From Spirochaetota bacterium (lineage in GTDB: Bacteria > Spirochaetota > Spirochaetia > Treponematales > UBA12059), in assembly GCA_018262985.1 (NCBI GenBank), contig JADFDI010000004.1, positions 62,001 through 126,000 of the forward strand: 64,000 bases of DNA, in the 5' to 3' direction. This document shows, in pieces, positions 46,440-56,026 of the stretch. Each line of letters starts with the position of its first letter. Within the stretch, counting starts at the first letter, position 1. The position numbers and the translations under genes were made by a program. The notes under the pieces are model-generated. The model had not been told where the DNA came from. It was given only the letters and a program-made list of their open reading frames with translations, and did no database searches.

Positions 46440-48227
46440 TCAGTTCTTGACGACGGCGCCGAACTTGCAGACGGCGTAGCACTCGCCGCACTTCACGCAG
46501 CGCGACGCGTCGATGACGTGGGCCTGCTTGCGCTCGCCGGCGATGCAGGGCACGGGGCACTTCTTGGCGCAGAGCGTGCAGCCGATGCACTTCGACGGAT
46601 CGATCGAGTAGGTCACGAGGTCCTTGCACTTTCCGGTCAGGCACTTCTTGTCGCGGATGTGCGCCAGGTACTCCTCGCGGAAGTGGCGGATGGTCGAGAG
46701 GGTCGGGTTGGCCGCGGAGCCGCCGAGCATGCAGAGGCTGGCCTTGGTCATGGCCTTGCCGATGCGCTCGAGCCGGGCCAGGTCGGCCTCCTCGCCCTTG
46801 CCCTTGGTGATGCGGTCGAGGATGTCGTGCATCTGGTTGGTGCCGATGCGGCAGGGGGCGCACTTGCCGCAGGACTCGTCGACGCAGAACTCCATGTAGA
46901 ACTTGGAGACGTCGACCACGCAGTCGTCCTCGTCCATGACGATCATGCCGCCGGAGCCCATCATCGAGCCGAGGGCCGCGAGGCTCTCGTAGCTGATGGG
47001 GGCGTCGAGGTCCTTCTCGACGATGATGCCGCCCGAGGGTCCGCCCGTCTGGACGCCCTTGAACTTCTTGCCGCCCCGGATGCCGCCGCCGATGTCGAAG
47101 ATGATCTCGCGCAGCGTCGTCCCCATGGGGACCTCGACGAGGCCGGAATTGTTCACCTTGCCGGTCAGCGCGAACACCTTGGTGCCCGTCGACTTCTCGG
47201 TGCCGATCTTGGCGAACCAGGCGCCGCCCTTGGTGATGATCACCGGGATGTTGGCCAGGGTCTCGACGTTGTTGATGACGGTCGGCTTCTTCCAGAGCCC
47301 CGAGATGGCGGGGAACGGCGGCTTCGGCACGGGCATGCCGCGGTTGCCTTCGAGCGAGCGCATCAGGGCCGTCTCCTCGCCGCAGACGAAGGCGCCGGCG
47401 CCGAGGCGGATCTCCACGTCGAACGAGAAGCCCGAGCCGAGGATGTCGTCGCCGAGCAGGCCGTATTCCTTCGCCTGCGCGATGGCGATCTTGAGGCGGT
47501 CGATGGCCAGCGGGTATTCGGCGCGGATGTAGACGTAGCCCTTGTTCGAACCGATCGCGTAGCCGGCCAAGGCCATGGCCTCGAGCACCGAGTGCGGATC
47601 GCCCTCGATGGTCGAGCGGTCCATGTAGGCGCCCGGGTCGCCCTCGTCGGCGTTGCAGATGATGTACTTCACGTCGCCGGGGGCCTTGCGGGTCAGGTCC
47701 CACTTGAGCCAGGTGGGGAAGCCGGCGCCGCCGCGGCCGCGGAGCCCCGCGGTCTTGAGCTCGGCGATGACGTCCTCGCCCTTCATCTGGAAGAGCGCCT
47801 TCTCGAGCGCGGCGTAGCCGTCGCGCGCGATGTACTCCTCGATGTTCTCCGGGTTGATGACGCCGCAGTTCCTCAAGACGATGCGGAACTGCTTCTGGTA
47901 GAACTCGATGTCATCGATCTTGTTGTTCGACTTGCGCGTCGACTTGTCGTAGAGCAGGCGCTTGACCTCGCGGCCCTTGACCGCCTGCTCCGCGATGATC
48001 TCCTTCGCGTCGTCGGGCTTGACCTCGACGTAGAAGGACTCCTCGGGAAGGACCTTCACGATGGGTCCCTTCTCGCAGAAGCCGAAGCAGCCGGTCTTGA
48101 CGATCTGGACCGCGTCCTTCACGCCCTGGGCGTCCGCTTCGGCGATCAGCCGCTTGTAGATCTCGTCGGACTTGCCGGACTCGCAGCCGGTGCCGCCGCA
48201 GACCAGCATGTACTGCCTGTAGGCCAT
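46440..48227 (-). CDS. hndC: NADH-/NADPH-dependent hydrogenase flavoprotein subunit (NuoF/HndC-type)
   Basis: 595 residues. An N-terminal thioredoxin-like ferredoxin domain (VCGGTGCESGKSDEI) precedes the 51-kDa diaphorase domain with FMN/NAD motifs (GLRGRGGAGFPTWLKW, NADEGDPGAYMDR). The [4Fe-4S] motif is ESCGKCAPCRIG, and the C-terminal ferredoxin domain has CIGCTLCAKKCP and CVKCGECYAVCKFG. It passes electrons between NAD(P)H and the hydrogenase subunit, possibly by flavin-based bifurcation. GGAGGGG precedes ATG 48227. The gap to hndD is 11 nt. Confidence 0.95.
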   Translation of the reverse strand: MAYRQYMLVCGGTGCESGKSDEIYKRLIAEADAQGVKDAVQIVKTGCFGFCEKGPIVKVLPEESFYVEVKPDDAKEIIAEQAVKGREVKRLLYDKSTRKSNNKIDDIEFYQKQFRIVLRNCGVINPENIEEYIARDGYAALEKALFQMKGEDVIAELKTAGLRGRGGAGFPTWLKWDLTRKAPGDVKYIICNADEGDPGAYMDRSTIEGDPHSVLEAMALAGYAIGSNKGYVYIRAEYPLAIDRLKIAIAQAKEYGLLGDDILGSGFSFDVEIRLGAGAFVCGEETALMRSLEGNRGMPVPKPPFPAISGLWKKPTVINNVETLANIPVIITKGGAWFAKIGTEKSTGTKVFALTGKVNNSGLVEVPMGTTLREIIFDIGGGIRGGKKFKGVQTGGPSGGIIVEKDLDAPISYESLAALGSMMGSGGMIVMDEDDCVVDVSKFYMEFCVDESCGKCAPCRIGTNQMHDILDRITKGKGEEADLARLERIGKAMTKASLCMLGGSAANPTLSTIRHFREEYLAHIRDKKCLTGKCKDLVTYSIDPSKCIGCTLCAKKCPVPCIAGERKQAHVIDASRCVKCGECYAVCKFGAVVKN

Positions 48228-48244
48228 ATCGTTCCCCTCCGCCC

Positions 48245-48640
48245 TCAGTTCCTGATGATGTCGGCCGCGGGGCGGTCGTAGATGTGCTCGTTCACGAGGG
48301 CGCGCGCGACGACGTGCCGGTCCACGATCTTCGTGGCGGTCGCGGCGTCGACCTTGCCGTAGATGGTGTCGGGCATGCCCGGCACGAGCACCTCGACGGT
48401 CGGCTCGACGTGGCAGAGCCCCATGCAGCCGGTCTGCGCCAGCACGACGCTCGCGCCGATGCCGTGGCGCTCGACCGCGGCCAGGATGGCGTCGAAGGCG
48501 ACGCGCGCGCCGGCGGCGATGCCGCAGGTGCCCATGCCGACGATGATCCGGATTTCCTTGCCCTCCGTCTCGCGGCGCTCGATGTCCCGCTTCTTCTCCT
48601 CGCGCAGCTTCCTGAGCTGCTCGAGCGTCATCTTCGCCAT
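48245..48640 (-). CDS. hndB: Thioredoxin-like [2Fe-2S] protein of the hydrogenase complex (HndB-type)
   Basis: 131 residues. Cys pattern MGTCGIAAG ... TGCMGLCHVEP, the four-Cys [2Fe-2S] thioredoxin-like ferredoxin fold, with VEVLVPGMPDTIYGKVD at the end. Start set at ATG 48640 (AAGGAG upstream); an upstream in-frame start lacks a ribosome site. It is located between the ATPase-like gene and hndC. Confidence 0.92.
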   Translation of the reverse strand: MAKMTLEQLRKLREEKKRDIERRETEGKEIRIIVGMGTCGIAAGARVAFDAILAAVERHGIGASVVLAQTGCMGLCHVEPTVEVLVPGMPDTIYGKVDAATATKIVDRHVVARALVNEHIYDRPAADIIRN

Positions 48641-48695
48641 GTTCGCTCTCCTTAACCCTGCTTCATGCCGCGGGACCATCCCCCGGCCCGATCCT

Positions 48696-49244
48696 TCAAT
48701 CCGCTTCCTGCGATTCCAGGAAGGCCTTCGCGAGCGCGAGCGATTCCGCGTCGCGGAGTCCTCCCGCCGCCTCGGCGAGCTCGGAGCGCCGGGCGCTCCA
48801 TGCGAGCCGGCTCTTGCCCGGCGTTTCCCTCGTCCTCGCGACCTCGAGCTCGTAGCCGCCCTCGAAGGCCATCAGCGACAAAACCAGGCCCGGCAGGTCC
48901 CCGACGGGCGGCGCGTCCGGATGGCCGAGGTGAAAGGCGAAGCGCACCCTCGTGCCCTTCCCCTTTTCCGACTCGACCGACCAGGTCCCGCCCGCGGCCT
49001 CGACGGCCTGGACCATGAAGGGGAGCCCGAGGCCCACCTTCCGCTTCGCGTGCTTGGTCCCGTCCGTGTGGAAGGGGTCCAGCGCCCGCGAAAGCTCGTC
49101 CCGATCCATGCCGCACCCGTCGTCCTCGACGAGGACCTCGACGCGGCCGTCCGATTCGGCGATTCGGAGCCCGATGTTCCGGGCGCCGGCCTCGACGGCG
49201 TTCTGCACGATGTCGAGCACGTAATCGCCGAAATCCCGGTGCAC
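48696..49244 (-). CDS. HATPase_c-domain protein in the hydrogenase operon
   Basis: 182 residues with a GHKL ATPase domain: IVQNAVEAGA (N box), VEDDGCGMD (G1) and KVGLGLPFMVQAVEAAGG (G2 and ATP lid). There is no HisKA, sensor or membrane segment, so it is not a full kinase; it resembles anti-sigma/serine kinase-like or ATP-binding regulators. Genes of this type recur between the NuoE- and HndB-type genes of hydrogenase operons in Clostridia and Thermotogae. It starts at GTG 49244, 2 nt after the hndA stop. The last about 80 residues are specific. It may sense nucleotide state or phosphorylate a regulator (inference). Confidence 0.85.
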   Translation of the reverse strand: MHRDFGDYVLDIVQNAVEAGARNIGLRIAESDGRVEVLVEDDGCGMDRDELSRALDPFHTDGTKHAKRKVGLGLPFMVQAVEAAGGTWSVESEKGKGTRVRFAFHLGHPDAPPVGDLPGLVLSLMAFEGGYELEVARTRETPGKSRLAWSARRSELAEAAGGLRDAESLALAKAFLESQEAD

Positions 49245-49246
49245 GG

Positions 49247-49720
49247 TCAGTTGCGGTGCTTCGCGATGATCTCCGGCAGCTGCTCAACGGTCACCTTGCC
49301 GTAGACCTCGTCGCCGACCATGAGCACGGGCGCCAGCCCGCAGCAACCCACGCAGCGCACCGCGTCGATGGAATAGAGCCCGTCGTCGGTCACCTCGTCG
49401 CCCTCGATGTTCAGGATCGAGCGCGCCTCCTCGAGCAGGGCCTGGCCGCCCTTCAGGTAGCACGCGGTTCCCATGCAGATGGCGAGCCGGTTCTTGCCGG
49501 GCTTCTTGGTCTTGAAGAAATGGTAGAAGGTGACCACGCCGTAGATCTTGGCCAGCGGCAGGTCGATCATCCGGGAGAGCGTCTCGGCCGCCTCGCGCGG
49601 AATGTAGCCGTACTCCTGCTGGATGCGGTGCAGGATCATGATCAGGTTGCCCGGCTTCGTCTTCCATTCCTCGACGAAGGCGGCGAGTTCCTTCGGAAAC
49701 TCCAGTTGGGCGATTGCCAT
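49247..49720 (-). CDS. hndA: NuoE-like [2Fe-2S] subunit of NAD(P)-linked hydrogenase (HndA-type)
   Basis: 157 residues. The 24-kDa subunit fold has N-terminal helices (LIMILHRIQQEYGYIPREAA) and [2Fe-2S] Cys motif GTACYLKGG ... DAVRCVGCCGLAPVL. It completes the Hnd/HydABC-type complex. ATG 49720 has GGAGGG 6 nt upstream. It is the first gene of the operon hndA - ATPase - hndB - hndC - hndD. Confidence 0.94.
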   Translation of the reverse strand: MAIAQLEFPKELAAFVEEWKTKPGNLIMILHRIQQEYGYIPREAAETLSRMIDLPLAKIYGVVTFYHFFKTKKPGKNRLAICMGTACYLKGGQALLEEARSILNIEGDEVTDDGLYSIDAVRCVGCCGLAPVLMVGDEVYGKVTVEQLPEIIAKHRN

Positions 49721-49790
49721 TCGTACCCTCCGGTGCATGGCCGGGCTCGGGAGCCCCGGCGCGGCCAAGCTAACATAGGATTCAAATTGT

Positions 49791-49810
49791 ATCAATAAGC
49801 CCTTATCGAT
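49791..49810. promoter_or_regulatory. Palindromic operator candidate upstream of the hydrogenase operon
   Basis: ATCAATAAG CC CTTATCGAT, 9-bp arms with one mismatch, in an AT-rich island 71-90 bp upstream of hndA. It suits a dimeric repressor or a redox regulator; it does not match the Rex consensus. The promoter itself could not be fixed, although TATGTT (49778-49773, minus strand) is a possible -10. Confidence 0.45.
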
Positions 49811-49950
49811 ATTAGTTTATTCTAACTCATGGATAGGCACGGATCCTGCATAAATATACGGCGTTTCCTATTCTAAGCCCGGACAGGGGAAGGGGACAGG
49901 GCGAAAATCTCGAATTCGAAGGGGGGAGCACGCCCCACCCAGACTACGGG

Positions 49951-50124
49951 AAGCGCGCAAACGCCAGAAAACGCGGCGAGGGGCTTTATCGGGACCGGCC
50001 GGGGCGGGGCCTGACTCAAGAATACGCACCCCGGCGCGCCGCTTCGCTTCGCTTGGGGGCGCGTATTCTTGAGTCACCCGCCGTCCTGCGAGCCCCGATA
50101 AAGGCACTTGCCGGGTTTGCGCTT
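49951..50124. repeat. Nested palindrome (large hairpin or cruciform)
   Basis: Three concentric inverted repeats. The inner one is a perfect 16-bp pair, TGACTCAAGAATACGC (50012-50027) with its complement at 50061-50076, extended by CCCC/GGGG. The middle pair is CTTTATCGGG (49984-49993) / CCCGATAAAG (50094-50103). The outer pair is AAGCGCGCAAAC (49951-49962) / GTTTGCGCTT (50115-50124), near-perfect. The arms contain AT-rich words unusual for this DNA. I recognise no coding or known RNA feature in the 597-bp gap 49721-50317. Confidence 0.85.
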
Positions 50125-50218
50125 GCACGCCGCGCCCGCCGGACGGGGGCGCGCTTCCCGGCTTCCGGGCGATTGCGTTGCTCGCACGCACGCGGCTCCC
50201 CCTCGCTACAGCGTCCTC

Positions 50219-50277
50219 GGGCGCGCCTGGCGCGCCCTCCGGTCGCTTCCGCTACCCCCACTCCGGAAACCGGAGTG
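50219..50277. terminator. Two small palindromes downstream of the receiver gene
   Basis: GGGCGCGCC T GGCGCGCCC (50219-50237, 9-bp arms) and CACTCCGG AAA CCGGAGTG (50259-50277, 8-bp stem). They lie 41-99 nt beyond the receiver stop codon on the minus strand and may end that transcript. Confidence 0.4.
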
Positions 50278-50317
50278 GCGGCGCCTATGCGACGACGGCG
50301 CGGGCCAGGGGGGCGGG

Positions 50318-50674
50318 TCAGCAGTCGACCTGGTCGAAGAGCTCGCGGAAGTTCTCGAGGGTGACGGGCTTGGCCAGGAAGGCGACGGGTTCGGTCTCGG
50401 CGGCGCGGCGGAGGGTCTCGCCGTCGGTGTAGGCGCTGGCGTAGGCGAGCGGGACCTTCCAGCGGTCCCGTATGATGGCGCCGGCCTCGATGCCGTCCAT
50501 GGGGCCGTCCAGGTGGATGTCCATGAGGATGAGGTCGGGCGTCTGCCGCTCGAGCCGCTCGAGCGCGTCCTCCGCGCTCTGGATCCGAGCGAGCACCTGG
50601 TGCCCGAGCGACTCGACCATGTGCGCGGTCGCGAGCTGGATGATGATCTCGTCCTCCACGATCATGACGTCCAT
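50318..50674 (-). CDS. Stand-alone response-regulator receiver protein
   Basis: 118-residue CheY-like receiver: IVEDEIIIQ (acidic pocket), phospho-Asp in LILMDIHLDGPMDGIEA, Thr/Ser in ASAYTD and Lys in LAKPVT. The HLDGPMDG form is typical of receivers linked to PAS histidine kinases of the HWE/HisKA_2 type. There is no output domain and no kinase adjacent. It is preceded by a TTGCCC-N17-TATAGT promoter that ends 6 nt from the ATG, with no Shine-Dalgarno. Confidence 0.9.
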   Translation of the reverse strand: MDVMIVEDEIIIQLATAHMVESLGHQVLARIQSAEDALERLERQTPDLILMDIHLDGPMDGIEAGAIIRDRWKVPLAYASAYTDGETLRRAAETEPVAFLAKPVTLENFRELFDQVDC

Positions 50675-50680
50675 GGCAGG

Positions 50681-50709
50681 ACTATAGCCCGACGCGGCGC
50701 GCGGGGCAA
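50681..50709 (-). promoter_or_regulatory. Promoter of the receiver gene, leaderless arrangement
   Basis: Minus strand: TTGCCC (50709-50704), 17-bp spacer, TATAGT (50686-50681), then CCTGCC and ATG 50674. Confidence 0.7.
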
Positions 50710-50756
50710 ATTTCCCCGGAGGGGCGGCGCCGGGGCGAAGGCGGCGCCCAGTTCCC

Positions 50757-51374
50757 TCAGAGCGGCATGAGGCGGGCCAGGGGCAGCGCGAGCAGGAAGG
50801 GCGCGGCCGTCGCCGCCAGGACGAGGGCTCCCGCGAGGTTCGTGCGCTCGGGCGGGGCGGCCTCGGCGTCGCCGGCCTCGCCGAAGCGCTCGGGCGGGAA
50901 CAGCTCGAAGAGCAGGGCGTCGAGGCTGCCGACCACGTCGTCGGCCTTGACGCGGCGCTTGGCGGCCATGATGGCGTCGAAGCGCACCAGCACCTGCGAG
51001 AGGAACCAGCCCGCGCGCCCCGGAAGCCGGAGTTCGCGGCGGATGGCGGCCAGGGAGCCGAGCACGGATCCGGCGATGGTCAGGCCCTTCACGACGCCGG
51101 CGCGCAGGGCCTCGTCGGTCACGCGGAAGCCGAGCACGGCGAAGAGCGCGAGCCCGCGCGGCGCGAGCAGCTCGAAGAAGGCCACGAAAAAGGCCAGGCC
51201 GAGGAAGTAGAAGGGCTTGATGCGCTTTCCGGCCGCGCGCGCGAGCAACCAGAAGGCGACGCACTCGAGCGCCAGCAGGATCAGGCTCGACTGGGCGATG
51301 AAGGCGGCGACCATCGCGACGCCCGCGGCGAGCGCCGCGTTCGGGCCGACCACCGGCCTAGCGCGAGCCGGCAT
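50757..51374 (-). CDS. EcfT-like membrane protein
   Basis: 205 residues with about five hydrophobic helices. The central block FRVTDEALRAGVVKGLTIAG and the cytoplasmic stretch with RFDAIMAAKRRV resemble the transmembrane T component of energy-coupling-factor transporters, but the Ala-Arg-Gly coupling motifs are not clear. There is no ECF ATPase gene in the window. The ATG overlaps the end of the nucleotidyltransferase/Gx fusion gene by 17 nt. It probably acts with that fusion protein. Confidence 0.65.
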   Translation of the reverse strand: MPARARPVVGPNAALAAGVAMVAAFIAQSSLILLALECVAFWLLARAAGKRIKPFYFLGLAFFVAFFELLAPRGLALFAVLGFRVTDEALRAGVVKGLTIAGSVLGSLAAIRRELRLPGRAGWFLSQVLVRFDAIMAAKRRVKADDVVGSLDALLFELFPPERFGEAGDAEAAPPERTNLAGALVLAATAAPFLLALPLARLMPL

Positions 51375-52341
51375 ACGCGGCCTCCACGGCGGCGAGCCAG
51401 GCCGACTTGGCGCGGAAGCGGGCCGCGAGCAGGCCCACCACCACGCTCGTCGCGGTGCCGATGCCCAAGAGCCAGGGGATGATGACCTTCGCGGTCGGCC
51501 CGAACACCACGATCAGCGAGAGCCAGGCCTGCACGAGGTTCGAGGCCAGGGCTCCGCCGGCGGCCAGTCCCAGGTCGCCGATATGGCGGCGGAACAGGGC
51601 CTTGAGGGCGAGCATGGCCGCGAGGCTCGCCAGCGAGCTCGCGGCGGAGAACACGAACACGTAGCTCGCGAAGGTGCCGTTGACGATTCCCTGCCCGATC
51701 ACCTTGGTCAGCGTGACGAGGAGCAAATGCCAGGGGCTCATGAAATCGATGGCCAGCAGCAGGGGCAGGTTCGAAAGCCCGAGCCGCATGAAGGGCACGG
51801 GCCGGGGGAAGAGGTACTCGATGGCGGCGAAGAAGAGCGAGAGCGCCCCGAAGACGAGCACCGCCTCCATGCCGGCGCTATGCCGCGCGCCGTCCTTCGC
51901 GGGGGGAATGGCCACCTTCGCGGGGGCGACCGCCTCGCGGTAGGCCGTGGAACTGTGCCGTTCGCGGCGATGGGCGCCGAGGCGCCTGACGGCGATGCGG
52001 ACGCCGTTCCGCCTGAGCCAGGCGCGGAGGTCGCGCTCGAGTTCCACCTGGTCGTGGCCGAGGCAGACCAGGTCCGGCTTCTCGCGCGAGAGCGCCCCGT
52101 AGCTCCCCTGCTCCTCGTCCGCGAGCGTCGCCGCGTCCACGAGGCCGCTTTCCGCGAGCTGGCGTATGCGCTCCGCCTCGGGGAAGACCGGCTCGCGGCC
52201 CTTCACGCGGCGCACGAAGGCGTCCCGGGACACGACCGCCACGAGGCGACCGCCCTTCGCGAGCGCGCGGGCGCGGCGGAGGAACCAGGCGTGGCCCGGA
52301 TGGAGGATGTCGAAGGTGCCGAAGACGAGGACGTCGCGCAT
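51358..52341 (-). CDS. FAD-synthetase-like nucleotidyltransferase fused to a Gx-transporter domain
   Basis: 327 residues. Residues about 1-130 are a cytidylyltransferase-like fold: GTFDILHPGHAWFLRRA, V-K-G-R-E-P, PEAERIRQL and LVCLGHDQ. This pattern is closer to archaeal RibL FAD synthetases than to TagD or PanC. Residues about 158-320 are a membrane domain of the Gx-transporter (formerly heptaprenyl diphosphate synthase component I) type, with RLGLSNLPLLLAID, TKVIGQGIVNGTF and ASNLVQAWLSLIVV. The chain is one continuous frame, not a frameshift. Making FAD at the membrane and passing it across is an attractive role (inference). ATG 52341 lacks a strong ribosome site. Confidence 0.75.
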   Translation of the reverse strand: MRDVLVFGTFDILHPGHAWFLRRARALAKGGRLVAVVSRDAFVRRVKGREPVFPEAERIRQLAESGLVDAATLADEEQGSYGALSREKPDLVCLGHDQVELERDLRAWLRRNGVRIAVRRLGAHRRERHSSTAYREAVAPAKVAIPPAKDGARHSAGMEAVLVFGALSLFFAAIEYLFPRPVPFMRLGLSNLPLLLAIDFMSPWHLLLVTLTKVIGQGIVNGTFASYVFVFSAASSLASLAAMLALKALFRRHIGDLGLAAGGALASNLVQAWLSLIVVFGPTAKVIIPWLLGIGTATSVVVGLLAARFRAKSAWLAAVEAAYAGSR

Positions 52342-52427
52342 AGGGTGTCCGGCCACGATACCGGCTCGCGCCACGGGGGTCAACGGGGCCGCCTCTCGTC
52401 AGGCGCGCTTGGACGCGCGGTTCCGGT

Positions 52428-52456
52428 TTGACCGGCCTCGCCCGGCCGAGTACGTT
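52428..52456 (+). promoter_or_regulatory. Promoter of the MFS gene
   Basis: TTGACC (52428-52433), 17-bp spacer, TACGTT (52451-52456), leader about 33 nt with GAGGTG before ATG 52496. Confidence 0.65.
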
Positions 52457-52495
52457 ACATGCGTCCGGCAAACCACTCCACCGCGAGGTGCTTAT

Positions 52496-53722
52496 ATGAA
52501 GAAGGAACGCTCCCAGGCGACCGGCAGGATCGGCGCCATCGGCTTCATCGTGCTGCTCGGCGTCGTCAGCCTCTTCGCCGACATGACCTACGAGGGCGGC
52601 CGGAGCCTCACCGGCCAGTACATGAACTTCCTCGGGGCCGGCGCCCTCGCGCTCTCGCTGGCCGCGGGCCTCGGCGAATTCCTCGGCTACGGGCTCCGCT
52701 ACTTCTCGGGAGCGCTCGTCGACCGCTCGAAGCGCTACTGGCTCATCGTGTTCGTCGGCTACGCGCTCCAGCTCGCCGCGCTCCCCCTGCTCGCCTTCAC
52801 CGGCGACTGGCGCGTCGCCATCGCCCTGCTCCTGCTGGAGCGGATCGCCAAGGCCTTCCGCAAGCCCGCCGCCGACTCGATGCTGGCCTACGCCGCCAGC
52901 GCCACGGGCCGCGGCTTCGGCTTCGGCCTCCACGAGGCCATGGACCAGATCGGCGCCTTCCTCGGGCCGGCCCTGCTCTCCCTGCTCCTCTTCCTGCGCC
53001 CCGACGGCGCGGGCATCGGCGGGCTCAGGGCCGGGCTCGTGCTGCTCTTCATCCCCGCCGTCGCCGCGGTGGCCAGCCTCGGCGTCGCGCGCTTCTTCTT
53101 CCCGAGGCCCGACGCCTTCGAGCTCGAATCGAAGACGCCCAGGCTCGGGACCAGGGGCATCAGCCCCGGCCTCTGGCTGCTCATCGTCGCGGCGGGCTTC
53201 CTGGCGGCCGGCATCACGGACTTCCCGCTCATCGCCTTCCACCTCAAGGAAACCGCCGCGCTCCAGCCCGCCTTCATCCCCCTGCTCTACGCGGGCGCCA
53301 TGGCGGTCGACGCGGCCGCCGCCCTCTTCTTCGGCTGGCTCTACGACCGGATCGGCTACAAGGCCCTGGTCGGCCTCTTCGTCGCGGAGCTCTTCACCGC
53401 GCCGCTCGTGTTCCTCGGCGGCCTGCCCGCCATCCTCGCGGGCATGGCGCTCTGGGGCATCTCGGTCGGCACCCAGGAGTCGGTGCTCAAGGCCGCCATC
53501 GCCGACCACACGCCGAAGGATTTCCGCGGCCGCTCCTTCGGGCTCTTCCAGACCGTGTTCGGCGCGTTCTGGTTCGGCGGGTCGGCCATCCTCGGCTGGC
53601 TGTACGGCTTCTCGCCGGCCCTGCTCGTCGCGGCCTCGGTCGGCTTCCAGGCGATCGCCCTGGTGCTCGCGGTGTTCGCCGGCTCGAAGATGGAGAAGGA
53701 AAAGGCGGCCGCCGCGGCCTGA
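52496..53722 (+). CDS. Major facilitator superfamily transporter
   Basis: 408 residues, about twelve hydrophobic helices in two halves. The loop-2/3-like motif appears as GALVDRSKRYW and its second-half counterpart as GWLYDRIGYKALVG. The N-terminal GVVSLFADMTYEGGRSLTG resembles the conserved 'D-M-x-x-E' start of an uncharacterised MFS subgroup found beside signalling genes. It could be an exporter; the substrate cannot be inferred. Confidence 0.88.
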   Translation: MKKERSQATGRIGAIGFIVLLGVVSLFADMTYEGGRSLTGQYMNFLGAGALALSLAAGLGEFLGYGLRYFSGALVDRSKRYWLIVFVGYALQLAALPLLAFTGDWRVAIALLLLERIAKAFRKPAADSMLAYAASATGRGFGFGLHEAMDQIGAFLGPALLSLLLFLRPDGAGIGGLRAGLVLLFIPAVAAVASLGVARFFFPRPDAFELESKTPRLGTRGISPGLWLLIVAAGFLAAGITDFPLIAFHLKETAALQPAFIPLLYAGAMAVDAAAALFFGWLYDRIGYKALVGLFVAELFTAPLVFLGGLPAILAGMALWGISVGTQESVLKAAIADHTPKDFRGRSFGLFQTVFGAFWFGGSAILGWLYGFSPALLVAASVGFQAIALVLAVFAGSKMEKEKAAAAA

Positions 53723-53761
53723 GGGTTCGGGGACTTCGCGCGCCCCGGCGCCCGCTCCCGG

Positions 53762-53806
53762 GCTCCCGCGGCGACTGCCCCGTTCAGCGGGACTCGCGGC
53801 GGGAGC
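53762..53806 (+). terminator. Hairpin after the MFS gene
   Basis: GCTCCCGC (53762-53769) / GCGGGAGC (53799-53806) enclose a 29-nt loop, 40 nt after the MFS stop codon. No T-tract. Confidence 0.3.
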
Positions 53807-53844
53807 GACTGGAAAGCCGGGGCCGCGCGGCCGATACTCGTCGC

Positions 53845-55887
53845 ATGGAGAAAAATGCCCGGAAGGCCCGCGCGCCCGCCGCGGTCCGCGCCTTGTCGAC
53901 CCGCCTCGCGGCCCTGGCTCTGCTGCCGCCGCTCGCCGTCCTCGCCTCCTGTTCCCTCGCGGCTCCCACGGGAGCCGCGGGCGCCAGGCTTTCGGGCGAC
54001 TCGGTCCTCATCATGGCCGGAACTTGGGAGCGGATCGACAAACGCGGCGCCTCCGACGTCGACGTCCCCCTGAGGCCGGGACCCTGGTCCTTCCTCTCCC
54101 CCGACCGGGCCGAGGGAACGGTCAGCTACCGGGCGACGGTCGCGCTGCCGGGACCGGGCGAATACTGGCTTTCCCTGCCCCATCCTGAAAACCTCTCGCG
54201 CGTCGCGGTCGACGGCACCCCGATCTTCCTGCGCAACTCCTACCGGATCGGCCGCACGCCGCCGCCTCTCCGCTTCGTGGCCGACGGGAACGCGGCCAAC
54301 CTCGAGCTCGGCGTCGAGCGCGGCGACCGCCTGCTCGAGTCGCCCCCTCCCCAAGGTTCCTTCATCCTGCTCGGTCCCGCCGAACGCCTTTTCGATTTCC
54401 GGGTCGGCACCGCCGCGCTCGTGGTCTTCTTCTCGGCCTTCTTCGCCGTCGCCGGCGTCTTCGCGCTCTCGCTGCGGCTCAGCCGCTCGGCCAACCGGGA
54501 CCTGCCGGTCCTGGCCGCCTGGGCGTTCACCCTCTCGGCCTACTACGCGTTCCGCGGCTCCCCCTGGCTCCGCCTGCTTCCCTTCGGCGACATGGTCCTC
54601 GAACGCGGGCTGATCGCGACGAACGCGCTCCAGGTCTCCCTGCTCGGCCTCCTCTTCTCCACCCTGGCCCCCGGCGGCCTGCCGAAGGCCGCGAGGATCT
54701 TCGCCGTCGTCCTGCCCCTGCCCTTCGCCGCCGCCGCCGCGCTGGCCCCGATCCCCGCGCGCGCGCTGGGGGCCGCCGCCCAGGTCGCGCTCGTAATCGC
54801 GGGGCTCGCGCTTTTCATCGGAGTCGTGCGGAACACCTTCAAGGGGACGGCCTGCTCGCGCCTCATCCTGCCTGCCTCCGTCGCTGCAGCCGCCGCCTTC
54901 GCGGCGAGGATTCCCCTCCGCGATTCGGTGCTTTCCAACCTCGCCCTCGAGCCGGCCGGCGTCGCTATACTCTGGCTCGCGGCCCTCTCGGCGAGCCTGC
55001 AGGAAGTCTGCGACGCCTTCGACGCCGCGTCCCACCTCGGCAGCTACGTCGAGGGGCTCGAGACATCGATGGGACGCTTCATTCCGCGCGAGTTCCTCGA
55101 CGAGCTGCAGAAGGCCGGCATCGTCGACCTGAAGCTCGGCGACCACGTCCGCCGCGAGATGACCATCTTCTTCTCGGACATCCGCTCCTTCACCTCGCTC
55201 TCGGAGCGCCTGACCCCCGAGGAGAATTTCCGCTTCGTCAACTCCTACCTGGCCCGCATGGTGCCGGTCATCAAGGAACGGGGCGGCTTCGTGGACAAGT
55301 ACATCGGGGACGCTATCATGGCCCTGTTCCCCGGCCAGCGCGCCGCGGACGACGCCGTGGCCGCCGCCGTCGAGATGCAGCGGCGCGTCATCGAGTACAA
55401 CCGGCACCGCGCGAACTCAGGCTACGCGCCCATCGCAATGGGCGTCGGCATCCACACGGGCGACCTCATGCTCGGCGTGGTCGGGGTCGACGAGCGCATG
55501 GAAAATACCGTGGTCTCGGACTCCGTTAACCTCGCCTCGAGGCTGCAGGCCATCGCCAAGGCCTTCAACCTGGGCATCGTCATCTCGGAGCAGTGCTTCA
55601 AGACCCTGTCCGACCCGGGTTCCTACCACTACCGCTTCTTCGGCAAGGTCCGGGTCATGGGCAAGGCGGCGCCCGTCTCCATCTTCGAGATCCTCGACGG
55701 GCTCGACCCGGCGCTCTTCGACCGCAAGATGCGCGCCAACACCTTCTTCGAGCAGGGCATGCTGTCGTACTACGGCAAGGATTTCTCCGACGCCATGTTC
55801 CATTTCCGCAAGGCGCTCGAGCTGGTACCCGAGGACGGCGCCGTCCGCTTCTACCTGGAAACCTGCATGTCCAAAACCCGCGCATAG
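53845..55887 (+). CDS. Membrane-anchored class III adenylate/guanylate cyclase
   Basis: 680 residues. The N-terminal signal has a lipobox-like end (LAVLASC, Cys about 36). An extracytoplasmic beta-rich domain (about 40-180) is followed by about seven TM helices (about 185-385), a layout like 7TMR-DISM receptors. A class III cyclase domain covers about 430-620: MTIFFSDIRSFTSLSERL and VDKYIGDAIMALF supply the metal-binding Asp pair, and VVSDSVNLASRLQ the transition-state Asn-Arg. A TPR-like tail follows. It makes cAMP or cGMP. GATACT lies 6 nt before the ATG, with no Shine-Dalgarno. Confidence 0.9.
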   Translation: MEKNARKARAPAAVRALSTRLAALALLPPLAVLASCSLAAPTGAAGARLSGDSVLIMAGTWERIDKRGASDVDVPLRPGPWSFLSPDRAEGTVSYRATVALPGPGEYWLSLPHPENLSRVAVDGTPIFLRNSYRIGRTPPPLRFVADGNAANLELGVERGDRLLESPPPQGSFILLGPAERLFDFRVGTAALVVFFSAFFAVAGVFALSLRLSRSANRDLPVLAAWAFTLSAYYAFRGSPWLRLLPFGDMVLERGLIATNALQVSLLGLLFSTLAPGGLPKAARIFAVVLPLPFAAAAALAPIPARALGAAAQVALVIAGLALFIGVVRNTFKGTACSRLILPASVAAAAAFAARIPLRDSVLSNLALEPAGVAILWLAALSASLQEVCDAFDAASHLGSYVEGLETSMGRFIPREFLDELQKAGIVDLKLGDHVRREMTIFFSDIRSFTSLSERLTPEENFRFVNSYLARMVPVIKERGGFVDKYIGDAIMALFPGQRAADDAVAAAVEMQRRVIEYNRHRANSGYAPIAMGVGIHTGDLMLGVVGVDERMENTVVSDSVNLASRLQAIAKAFNLGIVISEQCFKTLSDPGSYHYRFFGKVRVMGKAAPVSIFEILDGLDPALFDRKMRANTFFEQGMLSYYGKDFSDAMFHFRKALELVPEDGAVRFYLETCMSKTRA

Positions 55888-55896
55888 CGCGAATAA

Positions 55897-56026
55897 ACGC
55901 CGAGGCGCCGAGACGCCGAGGGAACGATGGAATCGGGATTGTCCGGATCAACGCGCGATCTCGATCATCCGCGCCTTTTCGATTCGTCGTCTTCCCCTTC
56001 CTCGCGACGTCCCGGCGTCCCGGCGT
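55897..56026. repeat. 130-bp imperfect palindromic intergenic repeat
   Basis: The left end ACGCCGAGGCGCCGAGACGC is followed by CGAGGG, and the right end reads, in reverse complement, ACGCCGGGACGCCGGGACG, so the ends form an imperfect terminal inverted repeat around a less GC-rich core. The 8-9 bp CGCCGAG(A/G) iteration is like interspersed elements seen in many bacterial genomes. It is located in the 161-bp gap between the cyclase and GH42 genes. Only one copy is in the window. Confidence 0.6.

Follow-up and report, generated by a model that had tools for sequence, protein, structure and literature searches.

The window analysed here is a 64,000-nucleotide stretch (G000:C17:62001-126000) of a 3.44-Mb, 99.8%-complete assembly. 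On its minus strand, at positions 51358-52341, we identified a single uninterrupted open reading frame with an ATG start, encoding a 327-residue fusion of a RibL-like nucleotidyltransferase to an EetB-type membrane protein. The predicted RibL-like FMN adenylyltransferase domain comprises residues 1-138 (51928..52341, minus strand), within which Pfam placed the CTP_transf_like family PF01467 at residues 6-136 (E 9.6e-16, above cut-off) and which carries the motifs GTFDILHPGH, CLGHDQ and HSST. It is followed by an inter-domain linker (residues 139-158; 51868..51927, minus strand), which dN/dS values mark as the least conserved part of the protein, and by an EetB-type ECF S-subunit, a candidate FAD exporter subunit (residues 159-327; 51361..51867, minus strand), in which the 'Gx transporter' family PF07456 was matched at residues 165-308 (E 1e-25, above cut-off). 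Both the RibL-type signatures and the Gx-transporter membrane domain proposed by the sequence-only reading are thus borne out. Downstream lies a second minus-strand open reading frame (50757-51374), which shares 17 bases with the fusion gene and encodes a 205-residue EcfT-like membrane protein that is a candidate ECF-T partner; no ECF ATPase adjoins the fusion gene. An Rfam scan of window positions 48000-56000 identified no riboswitch and no other family. An AlphaFold2 model built from three sequences was set aside (pLDDT 40, pTM 0.25).

The full-length fusion was recovered from all three sampled genomes of the genus (G000, G270 and G299) at 97-98% identity, the latter two copies deriving from the MAG contigs JAFGNN010000069.1 and JAKLEE010000080.1. 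Since the same open reading frame is present in these three separate assemblies, the fusion is not an assembly artefact, nor is it unique to the assembly in which it was first noticed; the overlapping EcfT-like gene is likewise kept beside it in each. Both halves are maintained by strong purifying selection, with pairwise dN/dS at 0.04-0.06 in the enzyme half and 0.01-0.02 in the EetB half, whereas the linker reaches 0.15-0.25. The fusion was found only in this one genus: none was detected outside it among 296 sampled genomes of the phylum, nor in the other 20 genomes of the family, where matches corresponded to the membrane half alone or to a different nucleotidyltransferase. These absences refer to samples of the phylum and the class, and a single-sequence scan of genome contigs returns near relatives only.

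Several lines of evidence relate the enzyme half to archaeal FAD synthases. Its best relative among PDB sequences is 3glv (E 2.5e-17), which is also the strongest PDB match (2.3e-34) of a haloarchaeal protein annotated as FAD synthase; we take this structure to originate from Thermoplasma and to have been deposited under an LPS-biosynthesis name. When compared with 72,556 plasmids, the enzyme half matched two genes, both haloarchaeal and both annotated 'FAD synthase', and none of the TagD, RfaE2 and HldE genes, although these are common among the plasmids searched. A profile built from close homologues, from which the window sequence was excluded, scored archaeal FAD synthases at 77-96 bits versus 34-55 bits for TarD, HldE and ECT types, some of the scored references being fragments. 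Further, maximum-likelihood reconstruction placed the window enzyme within a spirochaete clade and split archaeal FAD synthases from TarD, HldE and ECT sequences with 91% support; this tree is unrooted, includes few archaeal references, and constitutes no proof of descent from archaea. Alignment confirmed the HxGH and G[HY]DQ motifs in the enzyme half, while the bacterial RibF family PF06574 reached 15 bits, under its cut-off of 27. The fusion contains one cysteine overall, and the conserved cysteine pair of archaeal RibL is not evident. The archaeal-type FAD synthase from Entamoeba is active although it, too, has no such pair (PMC11423594), so function does not require the two cysteines. Nucleotidyltransferase matches at three loci elsewhere in the phylum (L087-L089) were set aside as HldE/GmhB types.

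Given the breadth of the PF01467 family, we also considered that the enzyme half might be another nucleotidyltransferase, of the glycerol-3-phosphate, heptose-phosphate or phosphoethanolamine type. Among named NCBIfam models the top score does go to a heptose one, rfaE_dom_II, although its 48.5 bits stand against a cut-off of 181.5; the corresponding values for g3p_cytidyltrns are 26.1 and 165.4 bits. We judge such an identity very improbable, as no TagD or RfaE2 plasmid gene was matched despite their number, the GHDQ motif and profile scores favour RibL, and the loss of ribF described below would be left without explanation. The relatives of the enzyme half instead point to FMN, rather than glycerol-3-phosphate, as its predicted substrate.

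PF06574 was absent from exactly the three genomes carrying the fusion. Of the 13 other family members sampled, 12 have it, and the one that does not is 67% complete. In relatives, ribF occupies a conserved position in the order rbfA-truB-ribF-rpsO-pnp, whereas in all three fusion genomes rbfA-truB-rpsO-pnp is contiguous without it, so that its absence is not due to an assembly gap. Apart from the fusion, G000 has just two PF01467 proteins, CoaD and NadD, as named by sequence and context. A similar arrangement was identified in G334, a member of another family with a stand-alone version of the enzyme: here nusA-infB-rbfA-truB-rpsO-pnp also lacks ribF (L214), and no RibF was found in the approximately 1.2 Mb examined of this 4.0-Mb genome. 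Two separate lineages thus combine a RibL-like enzyme with the disappearance of ribF from between truB and rpsO, and this pairing forms the strongest argument that the enzyme makes FAD. Together with its relatives, motifs, tree placement and profile scores, the ribF loss supports the FAD synthetase identity suggested by the sequence-only reading, as a predicted activity. The enzyme half is probably also the only FAD synthase of the cell, a prediction under which the fusion must feed the cytosol as well, no other FAD synthase being visible.

The supply of FMN to such an enzyme was also considered. No riboflavin kinase, either PF01687 or the archaeal PF01982, scored over cut-off in 25 genomes of the order, and FMN would thus have to be supplied either by an unrecognised kinase or from outside the cell. 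The RibF of relatives retains PF06574 only, followed by a C-terminal stretch that is unrecognised. In G191, a complete genome of the order, PF06574 matched weakly, in part and below cut-off, and the RibL-like enzyme is not among the matches listed; the order may therefore include other routes to FAD.

The membrane half scores 90.9 bits against PF07456 (cut-off 30) and keeps 30 of the 34 columns at which at least 90% of relatives agree. PF07456 is the EetB family, whose Listeria member acts as the S-subunit of an ECF-type FAD exporter and binds FAD: on expression in E. coli it pulled down FAD, and export of FAD to an ApbE-like enzyme requires EetB together with FmnA (ECF-T) and the ATPases EcfA/EcfA', which are common to flavin import and export (PMC9973259). 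Of 44 distinct relative loci, 35 have a homologue of the EcfT-like gene either immediately 3' of eetB or joined to it. By sequence the second gene is less readily assigned, with CbiQ (PF02361) matching at E 0.3, below cut-off, and a profile comparison with the CbiQ-type EcfT of G000 itself giving no match. Its putative ECF-T role is consequently supported by gene position and by the pairing already published; the overlap noted in the initial reading stands, whereas the EcfT label is weak by sequence. Neither the EcfT-like protein nor the EetB half matched any PDB sequence. Many relatives (ten loci) encode EetB with a C-terminal EcfT-like domain as a single chain.

Comparison of gene order also revealed relocation of this gene pair. 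The relative G165 has the order slyD-eetA-eetB-ecfT-MCP-leuS, while the corresponding block of G000 reads slyD-eetA-MCP-leuS, without eetB and ecfT; the eetB-ecfT pair of G000 is now found in the window, where eetB is joined to the enzyme gene. An orphan eetA (NusG_II, PF07009) was identified at the ancestral locus on G000:C11 (L075, 9108-9491), where it remains after relocation of the two genes.

Other components of the predicted flavin export pathway were identified elsewhere in the genome. The earlier remark that the window holds no ApbE gene is correct, the genome's single copy (G000:C17:224451-225287) lying approximately 98 kb past the window end. Rnf-like and Nqr-like clusters each include an FMN_bind gene (RnfG and NqrC, the subunits being named from sequence), and further FMN_bind proteins are present. 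An ECF module at G000:C22 comprises a double ATPase, which scores below the TIGR04520 cut-off, an EcfT and an S-subunit.

Based on these observations, we consider it likely that a RibL-like FMN adenylyltransferase, as sole FAD synthase, has been fused to the EetB S-subunit of an ECF-type FAD exporter. By homology and from the loss of ribF, the N-terminal half would act in the cytosol, using a nucleoside triphosphate to convert FMN to FAD. By analogy with Listeria EetB-FmnA, the EetB half, the EcfT-like protein and shared ECF ATPases, for which the double ATPase at G000:C22 is a candidate, would export part of this FAD. Outside, ApbE, the gene for which is present, may then attach FMN to RnfG, NqrC and other FMN_bind proteins.

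An opposite direction of transport was also considered, in which the EetB half would import FMN or riboflavin and the fused enzyme would turn FMN into FAD that is retained inside. ECF transporters are classically importers, and the lack of a recognised riboflavin kinase in the order, which keeps this alternative alive, fits a need for external FMN. Relatives with ribF are, on the other hand, also without a recognisable kinase, and the genome possesses ApbE and FMN_bind clients that need FAD outside. In Listeria, moreover, EetB could not substitute for RibU in flavin uptake and is required for export (PMC9973259). Together, these points make import an unlikely function of the fusion.

Other families of the class also carry close homologues of the enzyme half, at 41-59% identity. 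Many of these stand alone, including eight loci in other Spirochaetia families; no conserved flavin gene was found beside the stand-alone enzyme in the loci examined. In two further genera (g204 and g211), the RibL-like enzyme is instead fused to an EamA transporter (PF00892, E about 1e-29 to 1e-32). This EamA/DMT-type domain was observed at the C-terminus of the enzyme at five loci, each in a different genome (L136, G465; L139, G437; L142, G473; L144, G421; L147, G461), and the EamA-fused enzymes belong to other families of the class. An additional RibL-like enzyme (L148 / L166, 7916-9259, in G414) is fused to a membrane domain without a Pfam family.

Because the fusion puts FAD synthesis at the export gate, a local hand-over of FAD is plausible, and direct coupling of FAD synthesis to membrane passage, as put forward in the original reading, remains a prediction. 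In its strongest form, with the only FAD synthase handing new FAD directly to the fused ECF S-subunit, and with the same enzyme joined separately to EamA in sister lineages, we advance the idea tentatively, as somewhat more apt to be wrong than right. Alternatively, fusion might serve mere co-expression or membrane anchoring, with FAD joining the cytosolic pool and no local hand-over. The enzyme must also supply cytosolic flavoproteins, no other FAD synthase being visible; the same enzyme stands alone in other families, and the linker, besides being short, is less conserved than the rest of the protein. Conversely, fusion of the enzyme to membrane transporters in two ways, to EetB and to EamA, suggests a benefit of proximity. 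We regard co-expression or anchoring as a real possibility, though one that falls short of an even chance.

Compared with the EetB-FmnA-EcfA-EcfA' system of Listeria monocytogenes (PMC9973259), the locus described here similarly has a PF07456 S-subunit adjoining an ECF-T-like gene, with ATPases encoded elsewhere and ApbE and FMN_bind clients in the genome; it differs in that the S-subunit bears an N-terminal FAD synthase-like enzyme and that the gene pair lies away from eetA. Fusions of EetB to ECF-T, ECF-A or EetA have been described (PMC9973259) and likewise join EetB and a functional partner in one chain, but the partner there is a transporter part or EetA, whereas here it is a biosynthetic enzyme. 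With archaeal RibL and the Entamoeba FAD synthase (PMC11423594) the enzyme half shares its fold family, the GTFDxxHxGH and G[HY]DQ motifs, and replacement of the usual FAD synthase; those enzymes are soluble and stand-alone, while the window enzyme is part of one chain with a transporter subunit, and in having no evident cysteine pair it resembles the Entamoeba enzyme and departs from archaeal RibL. Bacterial RibF (PF06574), which is absent from the genus, catalyses the reaction that we propose for the enzyme half but belongs to a different nucleotidyltransferase family. A term search of PMC9973259 identified no mention of FAD synthetase or RibF, and open-access full texts yielded no report of an FAD synthetase in fusion with EetB or an ECF protein. 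The parts are already known; the combination was nowhere found reported.

The route by which FAD reaches ApbE outside the cytosol is a recent finding, made in Listeria. From another phylum, the fusion supplies independent evidence of FAD handling by PF07456 proteins, and it also draws attention to a bacterial FAD synthase family, so far unassigned, that takes the place of RibF. Further, it offers a single protein for testing whether cofactor synthesis is coupled to transport. If the only FAD synthase does hand its product directly to the fused S-subunit, one protein would decide how FAD is divided between cytosol and envelope.
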